Shown one piece after another: positions 55,493 through 60,045 of a stretch of 64,000 bases of DNA. The DNA comes from Myxococcales bacterium (GTDB lineage Bacteria > Myxococcota > Myxococcia > Myxococcales > Myxococcaceae). Both the position numbers and the translations under genes were made by a program. The DNA lies in contig JACPVI010000061.1 of NCBI GenBank assembly GCA_016191815.1, positions 1 to 64,000 on the forward strand, written 5' to 3'. Position 1 is the stretch's first letter, and each line of letters opens with the position of its first letter. The notes under the pieces are model-generated. The model had not been told where the DNA came from. It searched no databases and saw only the letters and a list, made by a program, of their open reading frames with translations.

Positions 55493-56668
55493 TCACGCGG
55501 GCAACTGCTCGAGGAGCTCCTCGACGCTCAGCGCGCTGACGCCTCTGGCGACCGCCTTGAGGACGCGCCCGGCGGCCGGCGCTCGGTGGACGATGACCGC
55601 ACTGGGGACTCTGGTCTTCAACGCCGCGGCGAGCTTCTGGAGCGGGAGCGCCATTTCCGGAGTGAGCGTCTTGCTCCACTTTGCTTCCACCAGCCATAGC
55701 GCCGCGCCAGGTCCAGGAACGAGGAAGTCGACCTCCAGCCCTTGCTGATCGCGGAAGAAGTAGAGCTCTCGCGCGCGCCCGGCATTGACTTGGTTCTTGA
55801 TGATCTCCGCCGCGATGAAGCCCTCGAAGATGGAGCCCAGGAAGGGCGACTGCTCGAGCTGCCGCGGGCTGTCGATCCCCAGCAGGAAGCAGAGCAGGCC
55901 CGGATCCACCCAGTACACCTTGGGCGACTTGACCAGGCGCTTGCCCAGATTCTCGAAGTAGGGCGGAACGAGCAGGACGTGTCCGGTCGTCTCCAGGACG
56001 GTCACCCACTCGGACACGGTCGGGACTGACACCCCGAGCGGAGCAGCCAGCTCGGTGCGGTTGAGGAGTTGGCCGTTTCGGCTGGCCAGCAGGGTGAGGA
56101 AGCGGCGGAAGGTGCCCAGATCCTTCACCGCCTTGAGCGAGCGCACGTCCCGTTCGAGATAGGTCTGCACGTACGAACGAAACCAAGGCCGGGCCGCGGA
56201 CGGCCGCTTCACCACCTCGGGGAACCCACCTCGCAAGAGGCTCCAGGAGCGGAGCTCACGGTAGGAGAGCGGCAAGAGCTGGAAGACCGCTGCCCGACCG
56301 GTCATGGACTCAGTCACTCCCGCCATCAGCGAGAAATCCTGCGAGCCCGTCAGCAGCCACTGGCCGTGCCGGTTCGGCGCCTGGTCAATGCGCGTGCGGA
56401 CATAGGAGAACAACTCGGGAGCGTTCTGGATCTCGCCGACGATCGCCGGTGTTTTCACGTCGTCGAGCCACCCTCGCGGGTCGGCCTTGACCGCCGCCAA
56501 CACGTCCGGGTCCTCCAGCAGGTGGTAGCTGGCTCCCGGGAAGGTGTGTTGAAGCAGAAAGGTCTTGCCGGCCCGGCGAGGGCCAGTCACCACCAGCGCG
56601 CCGAACTGCCGCGCCGCAGCCTTGAGGCTCTTCTCCAGCTCGCGCGTGAACACCACCCGTTTGGCCAC
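55493..56668 (-). CDS. AAA ATPase with C-terminal DUF4143 (intact)
   Basis: 391 residues from a GTG at 56668. Walker A 'VVTGPRRAGKTFLLQ' (~29-36), Walker B region 'TPAIVGEIQNAPELFSYV', sensor 'GQWLLTGSQDFSLM', then 'GRAAVFQLLPLSYRELRSW'. The second half is DUF4143: a winged-helix segment 'LGVSVPTVSEWVTVLETTGH', 'SPKVYWVDPGLLCFLLG', and a PD-(D/E)xK-like end 'GLEVDFLVPGPG' plus 'LWLVEAKWSK'. The family is widespread, often solitary and of uncertain role. The upstream promoter overlaps the start so closely that the mRNA is probably leaderless. A broken relative is at 23757-24744. Confidence 0.88.
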   Translation of the reverse strand: MAKRVVFTRELEKSLKAAARQFGALVVTGPRRAGKTFLLQHTFPGASYHLLEDPDVLAAVKADPRGWLDDVKTPAIVGEIQNAPELFSYVRTRIDQAPNRHGQWLLTGSQDFSLMAGVTESMTGRAAVFQLLPLSYRELRSWSLLRGGFPEVVKRPSAARPWFRSYVQTYLERDVRSLKAVKDLGTFRRFLTLLASRNGQLLNRTELAAPLGVSVPTVSEWVTVLETTGHVLLVPPYFENLGKRLVKSPKVYWVDPGLLCFLLGIDSPRQLEQSPFLGSIFEGFIAAEIIKNQVNAGRARELYFFRDQQGLEVDFLVPGPGAALWLVEAKWSKTLTPEMALPLQKLAAALKTRVPSAVIVHRAPAAGRVLKAVARGVSALSVEELLEQLPA

Positions 56669-56674
56669 GTGATA

Positions 56675-56703
56675 AATATAAGCTGCGACTTTAAATTCCT
56701 CAA
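56675..56703 (-). promoter_or_regulatory. Sigma-70-type promoter directly abutting the ATPase start codon
   Basis: On the minus strand TTGAGG (56703-56698), a 17-base spacer and TATATT (56680-56675). The GTG start begins at 56668, seven bases after the -10 box, where transcription would start. The stretch is strikingly AT-rich for this genome. Confidence 0.55.
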
Positions 56704-56947
56704 AGAGACCGAGGAGATGTCCCCCAGGGCGGCAAGCCCGACCGCCAGTCGGCCGAGCAGCTGGTGGCGGCACCCCTATTCGGGCTCTGGCTGGCCTCCA
56801 CCGCCCTGGCCACTCGAGGCGATTGGTTTCTTCGGGCGGTACGGCTCGGCGGCGCTGATCGACGTGCACGCGCTCTAGCGTTCTTCGTGGAGACCCGAGC
56901 CGCGAGGGTGGTAGGGTCCGCCAACTCAAGTCCACAAGGAGCGTTGC

Positions 56948-57277
56948 ATGAGACGGATGTCGATCGCCCTCTTCGGTGTCGCTGCTATCCTCTTCGTCGC
57001 GCCGGTCAACGAGGCCTGGGCCTGTGGCTCGGATTCGGACTGCAAGGTGGGGCATTGCTCCGGCGGCAAGTGCGGCTCCTGCGGCTCGGACTCCGACTGC
57101 AAGGGGCACAGCAAGTGCTCCGGCGGCAAGTGCAACAGCTGCGGCTCGGACTCTGATTGCGCGGTCGGCCACTGCTCCGGCGGCAAGTGCGGCTCCTGCG
57201 GCTCGGACTCCGACTGCAAGGGCGGCCGGTGCTCGAGCGGCAAGTGCTCGAACAAGGACGACTACCTCAAGGGCTAG
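56948..57277 (+). CDS. Small secreted Cys-rich repeat protein
   Basis: 109 residues: signal peptide to about residue 25 ('ILFVAPVNEAWA'), then four tandem ~20-residue repeats of the form CGSDSDCKxGHCSGGKCGS, sixteen Cys in all with spacing C-x5-C-x4/5-C-x4-C-x2. The DNA is repetitive too, leaving other frames open, but only this frame has a signal peptide and a coherent protein. The Cys density suggests either four small disulfide-knotted modules or metal binding. I recognise no characterised family; similar 'SDC..G.C..G.C' units occur in myxobacterial secreted proteins. It precedes the Ser/Thr kinase gene by 43 bases on the same strand. Confidence 0.75.
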   Translation: MRRMSIALFGVAAILFVAPVNEAWACGSDSDCKVGHCSGGKCGSCGSDSDCKGHSKCSGGKCNSCGSDSDCAVGHCSGGKCGSCGSDSDCKGGRCSSGKCSNKDDYLKG

Positions 57278-57320: not shown

Positions 57321-58358
57321 GTGGCACCTCCCGAAGAGACGCCGGATCGCTCCGTGGACCATCCGCGGGGCGAAGGGAATGACCTGCGGCCGGGGGAGGA
57401 TCCGCTCCTCGGCGCCACCCTGGGCGATTACCAGGTGCGCCACCGGGTCGGCGAAGGGGGCATCGGCATCGTCTATCAGGCCTTGCAGCAGAGCACCGGC
57501 AGGCGAGTGGCGATCAAGGTGCTCCGACCGGAGCTTTCCTCCAGCCCGAAGTCGGCCCGGCGGCTGCTCGAAGAGGTCCAGGCGGTGGGCGCCATCAGGC
57601 ATCCGTCGATCGTCGAGACGCTCGGCTGGGGTCAGCTGCCCTCCGACGGGCGGTGCTACCTGGTGATGGAATACCTCGACGGTGTTTCACTCGAGCAGCT
57701 GCTCGAGAAGGAAGCCCCGCTGTGCGCCGACGAGGTGATGGCGCTGCTCGACCAGGTGCTGGAAGGCCTCGGCGTGGCCCACGCCGCGGGAGTGGTGCAC
57801 CGCGACGTCAAGGCCGGCAACATCTTCGTCACCAGCGCTGCCGGCGGCGCGCGGCGGGTGAAGCTGCTCGATTTCGGGCTGGCCATGCATCCCGGCCGGT
57901 CGGCCCGCATGCGGCTGACCGGCGAGTCCTGTGTGGTGGGAACGCCGGACTACATGGCGCCCGAGCTGACCCAGCGCGAACCGGCCACCGCGCAGAGCGA
58001 CCTCTACTCGGTGGGAGTGCTTGCCTTCCACCTGCTCACCGGGCGCCTGCCCTTCATCGCTCCTTCCGCTCACGAGGTGATGCGCGCGCACGCGCGGGAG
58101 GTTCCCCCTCGGCCGCTGCTCTTCGAGTCCAGCGTCCCGGTCGAGCTGGACGCGCTGGTGATGCGGCTATTGGCCAAGCGGCCGGCGGATCGGCCTCCTT
58201 CGGCCGAGGCGGTGCGGCAGGAGCTCTTCCGTATCGCCCGCCACCTGGCCGAACACCCGCGTAGGAAAAGGAAACCGCGCACGGCGCTGGCCATGATCGC
58301 TCTCGCCGTCCTCGCCTCTGCCGCGGCCCTCGCCTATCTGGCGCTCGGGGGCCGCTGA
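57321..58358 (+). CDS. Ser/Thr protein kinase with C-terminal membrane anchor
   Basis: 345 residues from a GTG at 57321 without a clear ribosome-binding site, so the start is tentative. Kinase domain ~35-305: 'VGEGGIGIVYQAL', Lys in 'RVAIKVLRPEL' (~63), 'VVHRDVKAGNIF' (~160, with Lys-Ala-Gly-Asn), 'LLDFGLAM' and 'TPDYMAPELTQREP'. A basic stretch ('EHPRRKRKPR') then a transmembrane helix at ~323-342 end the protein; there is practically no extracytoplasmic sensor. Followed after 71 bases by a histidine kinase gene on the same strand, an unusual pairing of the two phospho-signalling types. Confidence 0.88.
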   Translation: MAPPEETPDRSVDHPRGEGNDLRPGEDPLLGATLGDYQVRHRVGEGGIGIVYQALQQSTGRRVAIKVLRPELSSSPKSARRLLEEVQAVGAIRHPSIVETLGWGQLPSDGRCYLVMEYLDGVSLEQLLEKEAPLCADEVMALLDQVLEGLGVAHAAGVVHRDVKAGNIFVTSAAGGARRVKLLDFGLAMHPGRSARMRLTGESCVVGTPDYMAPELTQREPATAQSDLYSVGVLAFHLLTGRLPFIAPSAHEVMRAHAREVPPRPLLFESSVPVELDALVMRLLAKRPADRPPSAEAVRQELFRIARHLAEHPRRKRKPRTALAMIALAVLASAAALAYLALGGR

Positions 58359-58429
58359 GCCGGCAGGGACGCGGGCGCCATGCCCGAGGGCCATCATTGG
58401 AAGCCCTGCCCTTGTAGGATGCAGGTCCG

Positions 58430-59530
58430 ATGAGGTTGCGAAGGAGGCTAGCGCTGCTGCTCGGCGCGACCGCGCTGGTGCCGCCGTTGGCCGCCGCCGC
58501 CGCCTGGGCGATGGAGGTGAACCCGTGGGCGGCAGCCGCCGCCTCCGGAGCACTCGCCGCGGCCGCCTCGCTCGCCCTCGCTCGCGCCTCCATCACCCGG
58601 CCCATCCAGCGCACGCTGGACCTTCTCGACCAGGGCTCCCAGGAAATCGCTGCCGCCCGCTACAGCCACCGCCTCTTGGCCGAGCAACCGGACGAGCTGG
58701 GCAACCTGGTCACGCACTTCAACGACATGGCCAAGGGCGTCGAGACTTCGAACGAGACGCTCTTGGCGATGTTCGGCGACCTGCTAAAGGAGATCGAGGA
58801 GCGCGAGCGGCAGCTCCGGGAGGCCCAACAACAAATATTGCGCAGCCAGCGGCTCTCGGCGATCGCCGAGCTCGCCGCGGGGGTGGCCCACGAGGTCAAC
58901 AATCCGCTGCAGGGCATCATGGGCAACGCCGAGCTGGTCTCCGGCGAGCTGCCCGAGGGCCCCTCGAAGCAGGCGCTGGAGGAGGTGGTCGAGTCCGCGC
59001 GCCGCATCGCCAACGTCACCCGCACCTTGCAGGCCCTCGCCACCGCCGAGCGTTCGGCGCATGTCCCGCTCGAGCTGAACGAGCTGGTGCGGCGCGTTCC
59101 CGACGTGTTGGAGGCGGCGGGAAACGGGGTCGCGGTGCAGCTCGACCTCTCGACCGAGCCGCACCTCGTCTTGGGGCACGAGGCGGCGCTCGTCGACCTG
59201 GTCGGCCACCTGGTGCGGAACGCGGTCGTCTCGATGGACGGCAGGCCGCTCCGCGAGCTGAGGCTCACCACTCGCCGCGTCGAGGGGCAGGCGGTGCGCC
59301 TCGAGGTGGCCGACACCGGCTGCGGCATTCCCGAGGAGCACATGGGGCGGCTGTTCAACCCGTTCTTCACCCAGAATCGCCAGCGGCGCGCGCAGGGGTT
59401 GGGGCTCAGCCTCTGCCACCGCATCGTCGAAGACCACGGGGGGCGAATCTCGGTGCGCAGCGAGGTCGACCTGGGGACCACGGTGAGCGTGCTCTTGCCG
59501 CTCGCCCCGTCGGCGCCCAGCTTGCGCTGA
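58430..59530 (+). CDS. Membrane sensor histidine kinase
   Basis: 366 residues. Two N-terminal transmembrane helices (~5-27 and ~32-50) with almost no periplasmic loop, a HAMP-like segment ('ASITRPIQRTLDLLDQGSQE'), a coiled coil ('EEREREQ'-type, ~110-140), the phospho-acceptor H-box 'AAGVAHEVNNPLQGIMGNAE' (~152) and an ATPase domain with N-box 'DLVGHLVRNAVVSMDG', 'VADTGCGIPEEHM' and 'GLGLSLCHRIVEDHGG'. No partner response regulator is adjacent. It is convergent with a STAS-like gene, five bases between the stops. Confidence 0.92.
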   Translation: MRLRRRLALLLGATALVPPLAAAAAWAMEVNPWAAAAASGALAAAASLALARASITRPIQRTLDLLDQGSQEIAAARYSHRLLAEQPDELGNLVTHFNDMAKGVETSNETLLAMFGDLLKEIEERERQLREAQQQILRSQRLSAIAELAAGVAHEVNNPLQGIMGNAELVSGELPEGPSKQALEEVVESARRIANVTRTLQALATAERSAHVPLELNELVRRVPDVLEAAGNGVAVQLDLSTEPHLVLGHEAALVDLVGHLVRNAVVSMDGRPLRELRLTTRRVEGQAVRLEVADTGCGIPEEHMGRLFNPFFTQNRQRRAQGLGLSLCHRIVEDHGGRISVRSEVDLGTTVSVLLPLAPSAPSLR

Positions 59531-59535
59531 CCGGG

Positions 59536-59943
59536 CTACTCGGTGCCTTGCGGGCCGTTGCCGTTCCCGCTCGAGACGACCCGCACCTTCGATTGGCGCT
59601 GCGGCAGGCGGCGGACCACGTGCTGCAGTCCGTCGAACGAGCGCTGCTGCCACTCGAGCTTGGGCTCATAGACCATGTCGAGCTCGACGCCGCTCTGATG
59701 CGCGGTGGTGATGAACTGCAACAGCGCGGCGATGGTCGACGAGTTGAAGTAGGCGAGCTGCTCGAAGTGCATTTCGATCGCCGACTTCGACGCCAACGCC
59801 GTCCGGATGAGCTGGTCGAACCACTGCCGCAGCGCTTTCTGCGGCTCACGGTGATCGCTCCGGCCGGTCCACATCACGCGGATCCGATTCTCATCGGGCT
59901 CAAAGACCTCGAGCGTCAGCGCGTCCAGCCGAAACGAGCTCAC
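59536..59943 (-). CDS. STAS-like regulatory protein
   Basis: 135 residues from a GTG at 59943 preceded by GGGGGA; a longer frame from 59979 lacks a site. 'LTLEVFEPDENRIRVMWTGR' and 'AIEMHFEQLAYFNSSTIAAL' match a SpoIIAA/SiaC-type STAS fold in which a Ser/Thr in 'FNSST' is the phosphorylation site read by a partner kinase or phosphatase. The C-terminus ('RRLPQRQSKVRVVSSGNGNG') is basic and flexible. It sits tail-to-tail with the histidine kinase. Partner-switch function is inference from the fold. Confidence 0.65.
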   Translation of the reverse strand: MSSFRLDALTLEVFEPDENRIRVMWTGRSDHREPQKALRQWFDQLIRTALASKSAIEMHFEQLAYFNSSTIAALLQFITTAHQSGVELDMVYEPKLEWQQRSFDGLQHVVRRLPQRQSKVRVVSSGNGNGPQGTE

Positions 59944-60045
59944 CTTGAATCCCCCGGCGGCTGGTGAACGTAACACCACGTACTTCTTCGGGCCAACGCA
60001 AGCCGCGCGGAGGCGGGAGCGCGCTTTGAGGGGGCCGGCGGGCGG

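Follow-up and report, generated by a model that had tools for sequence, protein, structure and literature searches.

A small myxobacterial protein built from cysteine-rich modules and its relatives, with a possible role as a headless extracellular stalk

We report here that a short gene within a stretch of myxobacterial DNA (the window, by which we mean the whole 64,000 nucleotides analysed) encodes a real protein under purifying selection. Our preferred reading of this protein, which we hold with middling confidence, is that of four beta-hairpin modules, each closed by disulfides, in a row of fixed length: in effect a 'stalk without a head' that would serve the envelope or matrix as a structural element, a spacer or an adhesive. 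As judged from sequence, it belongs with its CGSDSDC relatives to a set of myxobacterial proteins of this kind.

The open reading frame (56948-57277, plus strand) starts at an ATG and specifies a precursor of 109 residues with 16 Cys. Indeed, ORF and repeat analysis confirmed the original prediction of a frame of this length with four Cys-rich tandem repeats and 16 Cys. All of these Cys lie downstream of the putative AWA/C cleavage site, i.e. in the mature part, which comprises 84 residues arranged as four modules of the form CGSDSDC-x4/5-C-x4-C-x2 and a short tail (Table 1). The spacing that had been claimed, C-x5-C-x4-C-x4-C-x2, is exact in three of the four modules, the exception being module 2, which has five residues between its second and third Cys. 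The mature part is rich in Gly, Ser and Lys (44% Gly plus Ser), 19% of it is Cys, and only four of its residues are V, I, L, M, F, W or Y. Tandem Repeats Finder placed the array at the top of the 10 rows that it returned for the window (period 57, 3.9 copies, score 273). Such an arrangement is not due to chance: when the mature residues were shuffled, two consecutive units arose in 11 of 200,000 shuffles, compared to the four present in the protein. The tail, KDDYLKG in the window protein, has its counterparts in RDDYTNG (L068), KDDYLK (L069) and AAEYYK (L070).

Table 1. Features of the peptide gene and its surroundings, in window coordinates
Feature	Position	Strand	Basis
Possible minus-10-like element (TAnnnT), TAGGGT	56912..56917	+	Motif count across family genes
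Shine-Dalgarno AAGGAG, ending 6 nt before ATG	56936..56941	+	Sequence
Predicted signal peptide, residues 1-25	56948..57022	+	Hydrophobic core 2-26; signal peptidase I type site AWA/C by inspection
Module 1, CGSDSDC-KVGH-CSGGKC-GS, loop 4	57023..57079	+	Alignment, loop-length analysis
Module 2, CGSDSDC-KGHSK-CSGGKC-NS, loop 5	57080..57139	+	Alignment, loop-length analysis
Module 3, CGSDSDC-AVGH-CSGGKC-GS, loop 4	57140..57196	+	Alignment, loop-length analysis
Module 4, CGSDSDC-KGGR-CSSGKC-SN, loop 4	57197..57253	+	Best TIGR04201-matching stretch
Tail KDDYLKG and stop	57254..57277	+	Sequence, alignment
Ser/Thr protein kinase, one C-terminal membrane helix	57321..58358	+	Pfam PF00069 (Pkinase), 174.1 bits

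Upstream of the gene, a TAnnnT motif, which was picked after inspecting the upstream sequences, starts 25-50 nt before the ATG in eight of the 15 family genes, whereas 1000 mononucleotide shuffles gave 1.9 on average and never as many as eight. A sigma-70 scan found no plus-strand promoter upstream of the peptide gene, and the most widespread 7-mer in the upstream regions of the 15 family genes was present in at most five of them. The divergent gene on the other side (55493-56680, minus strand) encodes an AAA_14/DUF4143 ATPase, the open frame of which continues across the peptide gene as an antisense reading.

We compared substitutions in the coding frame with those in the five other frames, using four of the five four-module genes and six of the ten six-module genes. 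For both sets, pN/pS was lower in the coding frame (0.21 and 0.17, respectively) than in each of the other frames, and the differences at codon positions 1, 2 and 3 (50, 42 and 139 in the four-module genes; 201, 164 and 751 in the six-module genes) revealed an excess at the third position. Pairwise dN/dS (Nei-Gojobori) ranged from 0.07 to 0.27 over six pairs. Frameshifted relatives, which would indicate a frame that is not translated, were looked for and not found, the frame being intact in all 14 aligned relatives. The claim that the protein is exported, Cys-rich and translated is therefore supported by the signal peptide, by purifying selection and by this intact frame. That the array is merely an artefact of repetitive, GC-rich DNA, untranslated or read in antisense, is extremely improbable, even though an antisense frame (56926-57255, minus strand) is open over an equal length, and a crude codon-position caller preferred the antisense strand at many loci and, in the window, overlooked the peptide frame. 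We set this preference of the caller aside because the substitution test overrides it: the antisense frame with the same wobble position gave pN/pS values of 0.34 and 0.30 and contains one stop among the four sequences and eight among the six, and the remaining four frames each gave more than 1.6. Shine-Dalgarno-like sites (GGAG, AGGA or GAGG no more than 18 nt before the ATG) in 12 of the 15 family genes likewise argue against an artefact. The antisense frame at 56926-57255 would encode 109 aa with QSESEP repeats and recurs opposite family genes in other loci; this recurrence is an effect of codon use in the repeat.

To place the protein among its relatives, one genome per species was scanned across 84,980 species, which returned 74 stretches with the pattern and 16 confirmed loci. 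All but one of these loci encode the family of the window protein, L083 being a different protein, and the family loci carry the titles Myxococcales, Myxococcaceae, Kofleriaceae, Deltaproteobacteria and Minicystis rosea (L072). The alignment (A1) holds 15 proteins, namely the window protein, those of 13 of the 16 confirmed loci and L010; L081 and L082 (from the same isolate and cut by contig ends) were omitted together with L083. Organisms were counted once each (L070 is the contig of G061/G196 and L069 apparently that of G005). All 14 aligned relatives, which come from Myxococcota or deltaproteobacterial assemblies, share the same build, with six modules in ten of the aligned proteins and four in five, the window protein among the latter. 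Every Cys of the array is kept, giving 16 or 24 per protein, with one to three extra Cys outside the array in L073, L079 and L080. The DSD and the Gly residues near the last two Cys of a module are conserved almost as strictly as the Cys, and conservation within the array is highest in the last module.

The modules are also ordered. Loop lengths run 5,5,4,5,4,4 in all ten six-module proteins and 4,5,4,4 in the window protein, L068, L069 and L070, which is the pattern of modules 3-6 of the six-module form; MAFFT aligns these four proteins to the same modules of the longer form. The Minicystis rosea protein has loop lengths of 5,5,4,4. Modules 1 and 2 of the window protein may correspond to positions 3 and 4 by loop length and by MAFFT, a correspondence left unsettled by identity scores. 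Across the ten six-module proteins, the best match of 50 of the 60 modules was the same position in other proteins; when modules were shuffled (n=500), this count averaged 9.8 and never exceeded 21. Such position-specific modules would fit a fixed three-dimensional shape better than a loose repeat expansion. Both forms can coexist, as in assembly G195, where L068 has four modules and L074 has six. A variable-number repeat is not supported, since counts are four or six only and the order is kept in this comparison across species.

A profile built from A1 matched 53 of 195 Myxococcota genomes at E <= 1e-8, only four of them below 1e-30 (G000, G005, G043 and G061). Because the spread among Myxococcota genomes is patchy, the window family is not a core structural part. 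A mobile-element origin was tried and rejected, no match at E <= 0.01 being found in 72,556 plasmid and 50,697 phage records. Lipoprotein candidates among the 15 proteins numbered five under a loose lipobox rule and none under a strict rule. In four of the five loose fits, the lipid-site Cys is the first Cys of the array, and lipidation there would leave an odd number of Cys for disulfides. The L080 protein (165-740) has a possible lipobox, ASGC, by the loose rule only, followed by a stretch of about 45 residues rich in Ala and Pro and then by six modules; it is a possible lipoprotein, which would place it at the envelope, and is the sole hint of location.

The best library match of the window protein was NCBIfam TIGR04201 (Myxo_Cys_RPT), which it matched in four stretches with 23.1 bits (E 5.8e-05), just under the curated cut-off of 25 bits. 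All seven relatives scanned singly were over this cut-off (L068, 29.6; L069, 32.8; L070, 29.7; L010, 35.6; L074, 35.9; L077, 37.3; L080, 38.4 bits), and the model was found in all 15 family proteins at E <= 0.1. The close relatives thus fall within TIGR04201, being myxobacterial, of exported type and with four Cys per module kept. The window's own genome holds seven matches over the cut-off, in five other, larger frames, one of them with an OmpA-like C-terminus, so the original description of the repeats as unusual for bacteria was too broad; no match over the cut-off was present in 14 control genomes, ten of which had low-scoring ones. TIGR04201 was defined on the Cys-rich repeats of the TraA stalk of Myxococcus xanthus, which has been proposed to be rigid (PMC3325183), and in a later preprint the TraA shaft is modelled as successive beta-hairpins that disulfides are presumed to stiffen (PMC12045341). 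The window protein resembles the TraA stalk and TIGR04201 in its similar tandem Cys module, in being of exported type and in its occurrence in Myxococcota. Unlike TraA, however, its mature part consists of modules alone, with neither a head domain nor a C-terminal membrane helix. It scored 8.4 bits against the TraA receptor model NF033759 (cut-off 750) and falls outside that family. No TraA match was found in its own genome at E <= 1e-20, so the small protein does not depend on TraA; matches to TraA below the cut-off were present in two of the 15 family genomes (G198 and G204).

Other libraries offered more distant likenesses. The window protein matched nothing in Pfam, even when E values up to 10 were allowed. 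DUF7107 (PF23416) matched seven of the 15 family members at E <= 1, with a best value of 1.8e-05, and L029, a member of a sister set described below, was over its cut-off. The modules of DUF7107, EB (PF01683), WAP and Dickkopf_N have similar Cys spacing, but there is no evidence of common descent. OmpA-type proteins, for example L003/L118 in the window's own genome, carry the same kind of repeat and are also of exported type, but by inspection their repeats precede a C-terminal OmpA-like domain. Proteins of this type (L003/L118, L012, L090, L092 and L102; 250-310 aa) recur in the searched Myxococcota genomes.

AlphaFold, supplied with 15 sequences, modelled the window protein with a mean pLDDT of 75.3 and a pTM of 0.51, the block means over residues 31-100 being 82-88. 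The model has a short helical turn at every DSDC and one beta-hairpin per module. The model of a six-module protein was much weaker (mean pLDDT 63.8, pTM 0.36). No relative of the window protein was found in the PDB by sequence at E up to 10, and by fold there was nothing significant, the sole two matches (E 3.8 and 9.5) extending over about 20 residues. In a viral fold library, two matches fell below 0.001, one of them to a Pithovirus protein and the other to an unnamed protein; with TM-scores of 0.33 or less, they were rejected as composition-driven.

A mechanism can be proposed along these lines. The precursor would be exported through Sec and cleaved at AWA/C, and its 16 Cys would then be oxidised to disulfides outside the cytoplasm. 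Since the exported protein is nearly free of hydrophobic residues and has four Cys per module, disulfides would have to hold the fold. The product would be a rigid hairpin rod of defined length, a shape to which the model and the position-specific modules lend support. By analogy with the TraA shaft, although headless, such a rod could form a structural, spacer or adhesive part of the envelope or extracellular matrix. No lipobox was found in the window protein under the loose or the strict rule, so its retention at the surface is a conjecture.

Sister sets with other motifs share this all-repeat build. Five proteins of the CYSDSEC set were inspected (L015, L017, L034, L037 and L116), and each consists of a signal peptide and five to six near-identical four-Cys modules and nothing else; unlike the window protein, they have a TTAGGQ-like spacer separating the modules. 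With 50.4 bits, L015 exceeds the TIGR04201 cut-off. The CNFSSDC set comprises all-repeat exported proteins with three (L011) or five (L029) modules, and the exported proteins of the CSTSSDC set (L113 and L115) have a pre-sequence between the signal peptide and four modules. When an alignment of the CYSDSEC set was used, matches at E <= 1e-12 came from 41 of 195 Myxococcota genomes, including 14 with E below 1e-24.

Cysteine-rich exported proteins invite other explanations, and the original prediction had named a toxin and a metal-binding protein among them. It seems unlikely that the window protein is a secreted knottin-kind peptide for defence, predation or inhibition, directed at other microbes or their proteases. 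Such a role draws on the sister protein L015, which exceeds the cut-off of PF08116, a family named for a spider neurotoxin (42.1 bits against 25), probably through its Cys spacing, and which also matches EB, WAP and Dickkopf_N below their cut-offs; furthermore, the sole PDB fold matches noted above, neither significant, were to a squash trypsin inhibitor and a conotoxin. However, no toxin, WAP or knottin family in Pfam was matched at E <= 1 by the 15 members of the window's own set, one of which matches EB (E 0.36). The conservation of modules across species and the pN/pS of 0.21 show no sign of arms-race divergence, and no neighbour kept across loci was found that could be an immunity or export partner. 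We also doubt that the thiols, reduced or modified, serve to bind extracytoplasmic metals (copper, zinc or mercury) in the manner of metallothioneins or MNIO metallophores. Metallothioneins are Cys-rich, nearly without hydrophobic residues and rich in Gly, Ser and Lys, and the composition of the mature part is similar in each respect. At E <= 0.1, three of the 15 family members matched the HvfA metallophore model, the best with 4.5e-05, although among members scanned singly the HvfA scores (L074, 16.4; L080, 12.6; L077, 11.5 bits) are to be read against a cut-off of 95; L068 weakly resembles the CzcI efflux model (18 of 100 bits), and L069 lies 400 bp from a MerC gene, a neighbour seen in one locus only. 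The gene of an MNIO enzyme normally lies beside that of its precursor. The enzyme (PF05114) is present in 11 of 16 genome entries, but was not found in the window's own genome (98.8% complete), G061 (97%), G203 or G206, and in the five entries compared it is not on the contig that carries the peptide gene, except in Minicystis rosea, where about 270 kb separate the two. An MNIO-modified RiPP (HvfA, bufferins) was therefore rejected for the window gene, and this form of the metal-binding claim fails; plain metal binding through thiols is unlikely. Pfam matches of the 15 members at E <= 1 (five families listed) included no metallothionein model, and the near-Cys-strict conservation of DSD and Gly speaks for a fold and against metal binding.

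The gene's position beside a Ser/Thr kinase, as had been described, is correct, the kinase frame beginning 43 bp past the peptide stop codon. It had further been suggested that the peptide could be a ligand sensed through the adjacent phospho-signalling genes. We consider it very unlikely that it is a signal sensed by this kinase or by the histidine kinase that follows, despite the order of all three genes on one strand and the lack of a plus-strand terminator in the interval between peptide and kinase. Kinases do occur within several kb elsewhere, at L068 (Ser/Thr) and, at a distance of 3 kb, at L077, where the histidine kinase groups distantly with that of the window, and also in four CYSDSEC-search loci (L150, L152, L159 and L160) at no more than 37% identity. 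Yet in the 15 other family loci, the flanks of which were compared over 6 kb at most, several being cut by contig ends, the only match to the Ser/Thr kinase was that at L068, 30% identical and 2.5 kb away. Moreover, neither adjacent kinase has an exterior sensor domain. The sole membrane helix of the Ser/Thr kinase spans residues 319-344 of 345, so that the chain ends one residue later. In the histidine kinase the first helix ends at residue 28 and the HAMP domain covers 55-104, with residues 29-54 between them hydrophobic themselves, below the helix threshold used. Such kinases are also abundant in five family-bearing genomes (at least 57, 11, 5, 65 and 72 at E <= 1e-40), so one kinase neighbour is unremarkable. 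The ligand claim is thus not supported, no neighbour kept across loci having been found and there being no room for an outside sensor domain, and the adjacent Ser/Thr kinase is most likely a bystander, unrelated in function. The two kinases form a tandem at 57321-59530, each with hydrophobic helices. A small protein beside them (59536-59979, minus strand) has weak SiaC/STAS matches (17.2 bits, under the cut-off) and is a possible regulator.

Neighbours were compared all-against-all over the 16 CGSDSDC loci and the window, 13 CYSDSEC-search loci and two CNFSSDC loci, and a conserved operon was rejected, with no neighbour family in most loci compared. The largest cluster, with members in six loci, consists of antisense translations of the repeat; next come histidine kinases, found in five loci including the window with identities of no more than 37%, and Ser/Thr kinases, found in four including the window with no more than 34%. 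Pfam on 20 neighbours from ten loci yielded no recurring function beyond methyltransferases in two. A B12-binding radical SAM protein is 80% identical between two loci (L077:3763-5943 and L076:10339-12279), at differing distance and orientation to the peptide gene.

To conclude, the reading of the window protein as a stalk without a head extends to a wider and more speculative idea, to which we give little weight as yet: Myxococcota may export free, headless disulfide rods (the CGSDSDC, CYSDSEC, CNFSSDC and CSTSSDC sets), with a fixed module order at least in the CGSDSDC set, each of which would be a ruler or cross-link of set length between surface or matrix partners, for example by pairing with Cys-rich receptor stalks. 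The papers that we found describe the myxobacterial Cys-rich repeat as a part of larger proteins such as TraA, and in the literature searched we found no description of stand-alone proteins of the Myxo_Cys_RPT or 'Cys-rich repeat-containing protein' kind. These proteins would represent an exported set for which we found no study, and they come from a phylum noted for its predatory habits and cell-cell contact. Consisting of repeats only and with a conserved module order, they may offer a small and easily made model for the disulfide pattern, stiffness and binding of this repeat.
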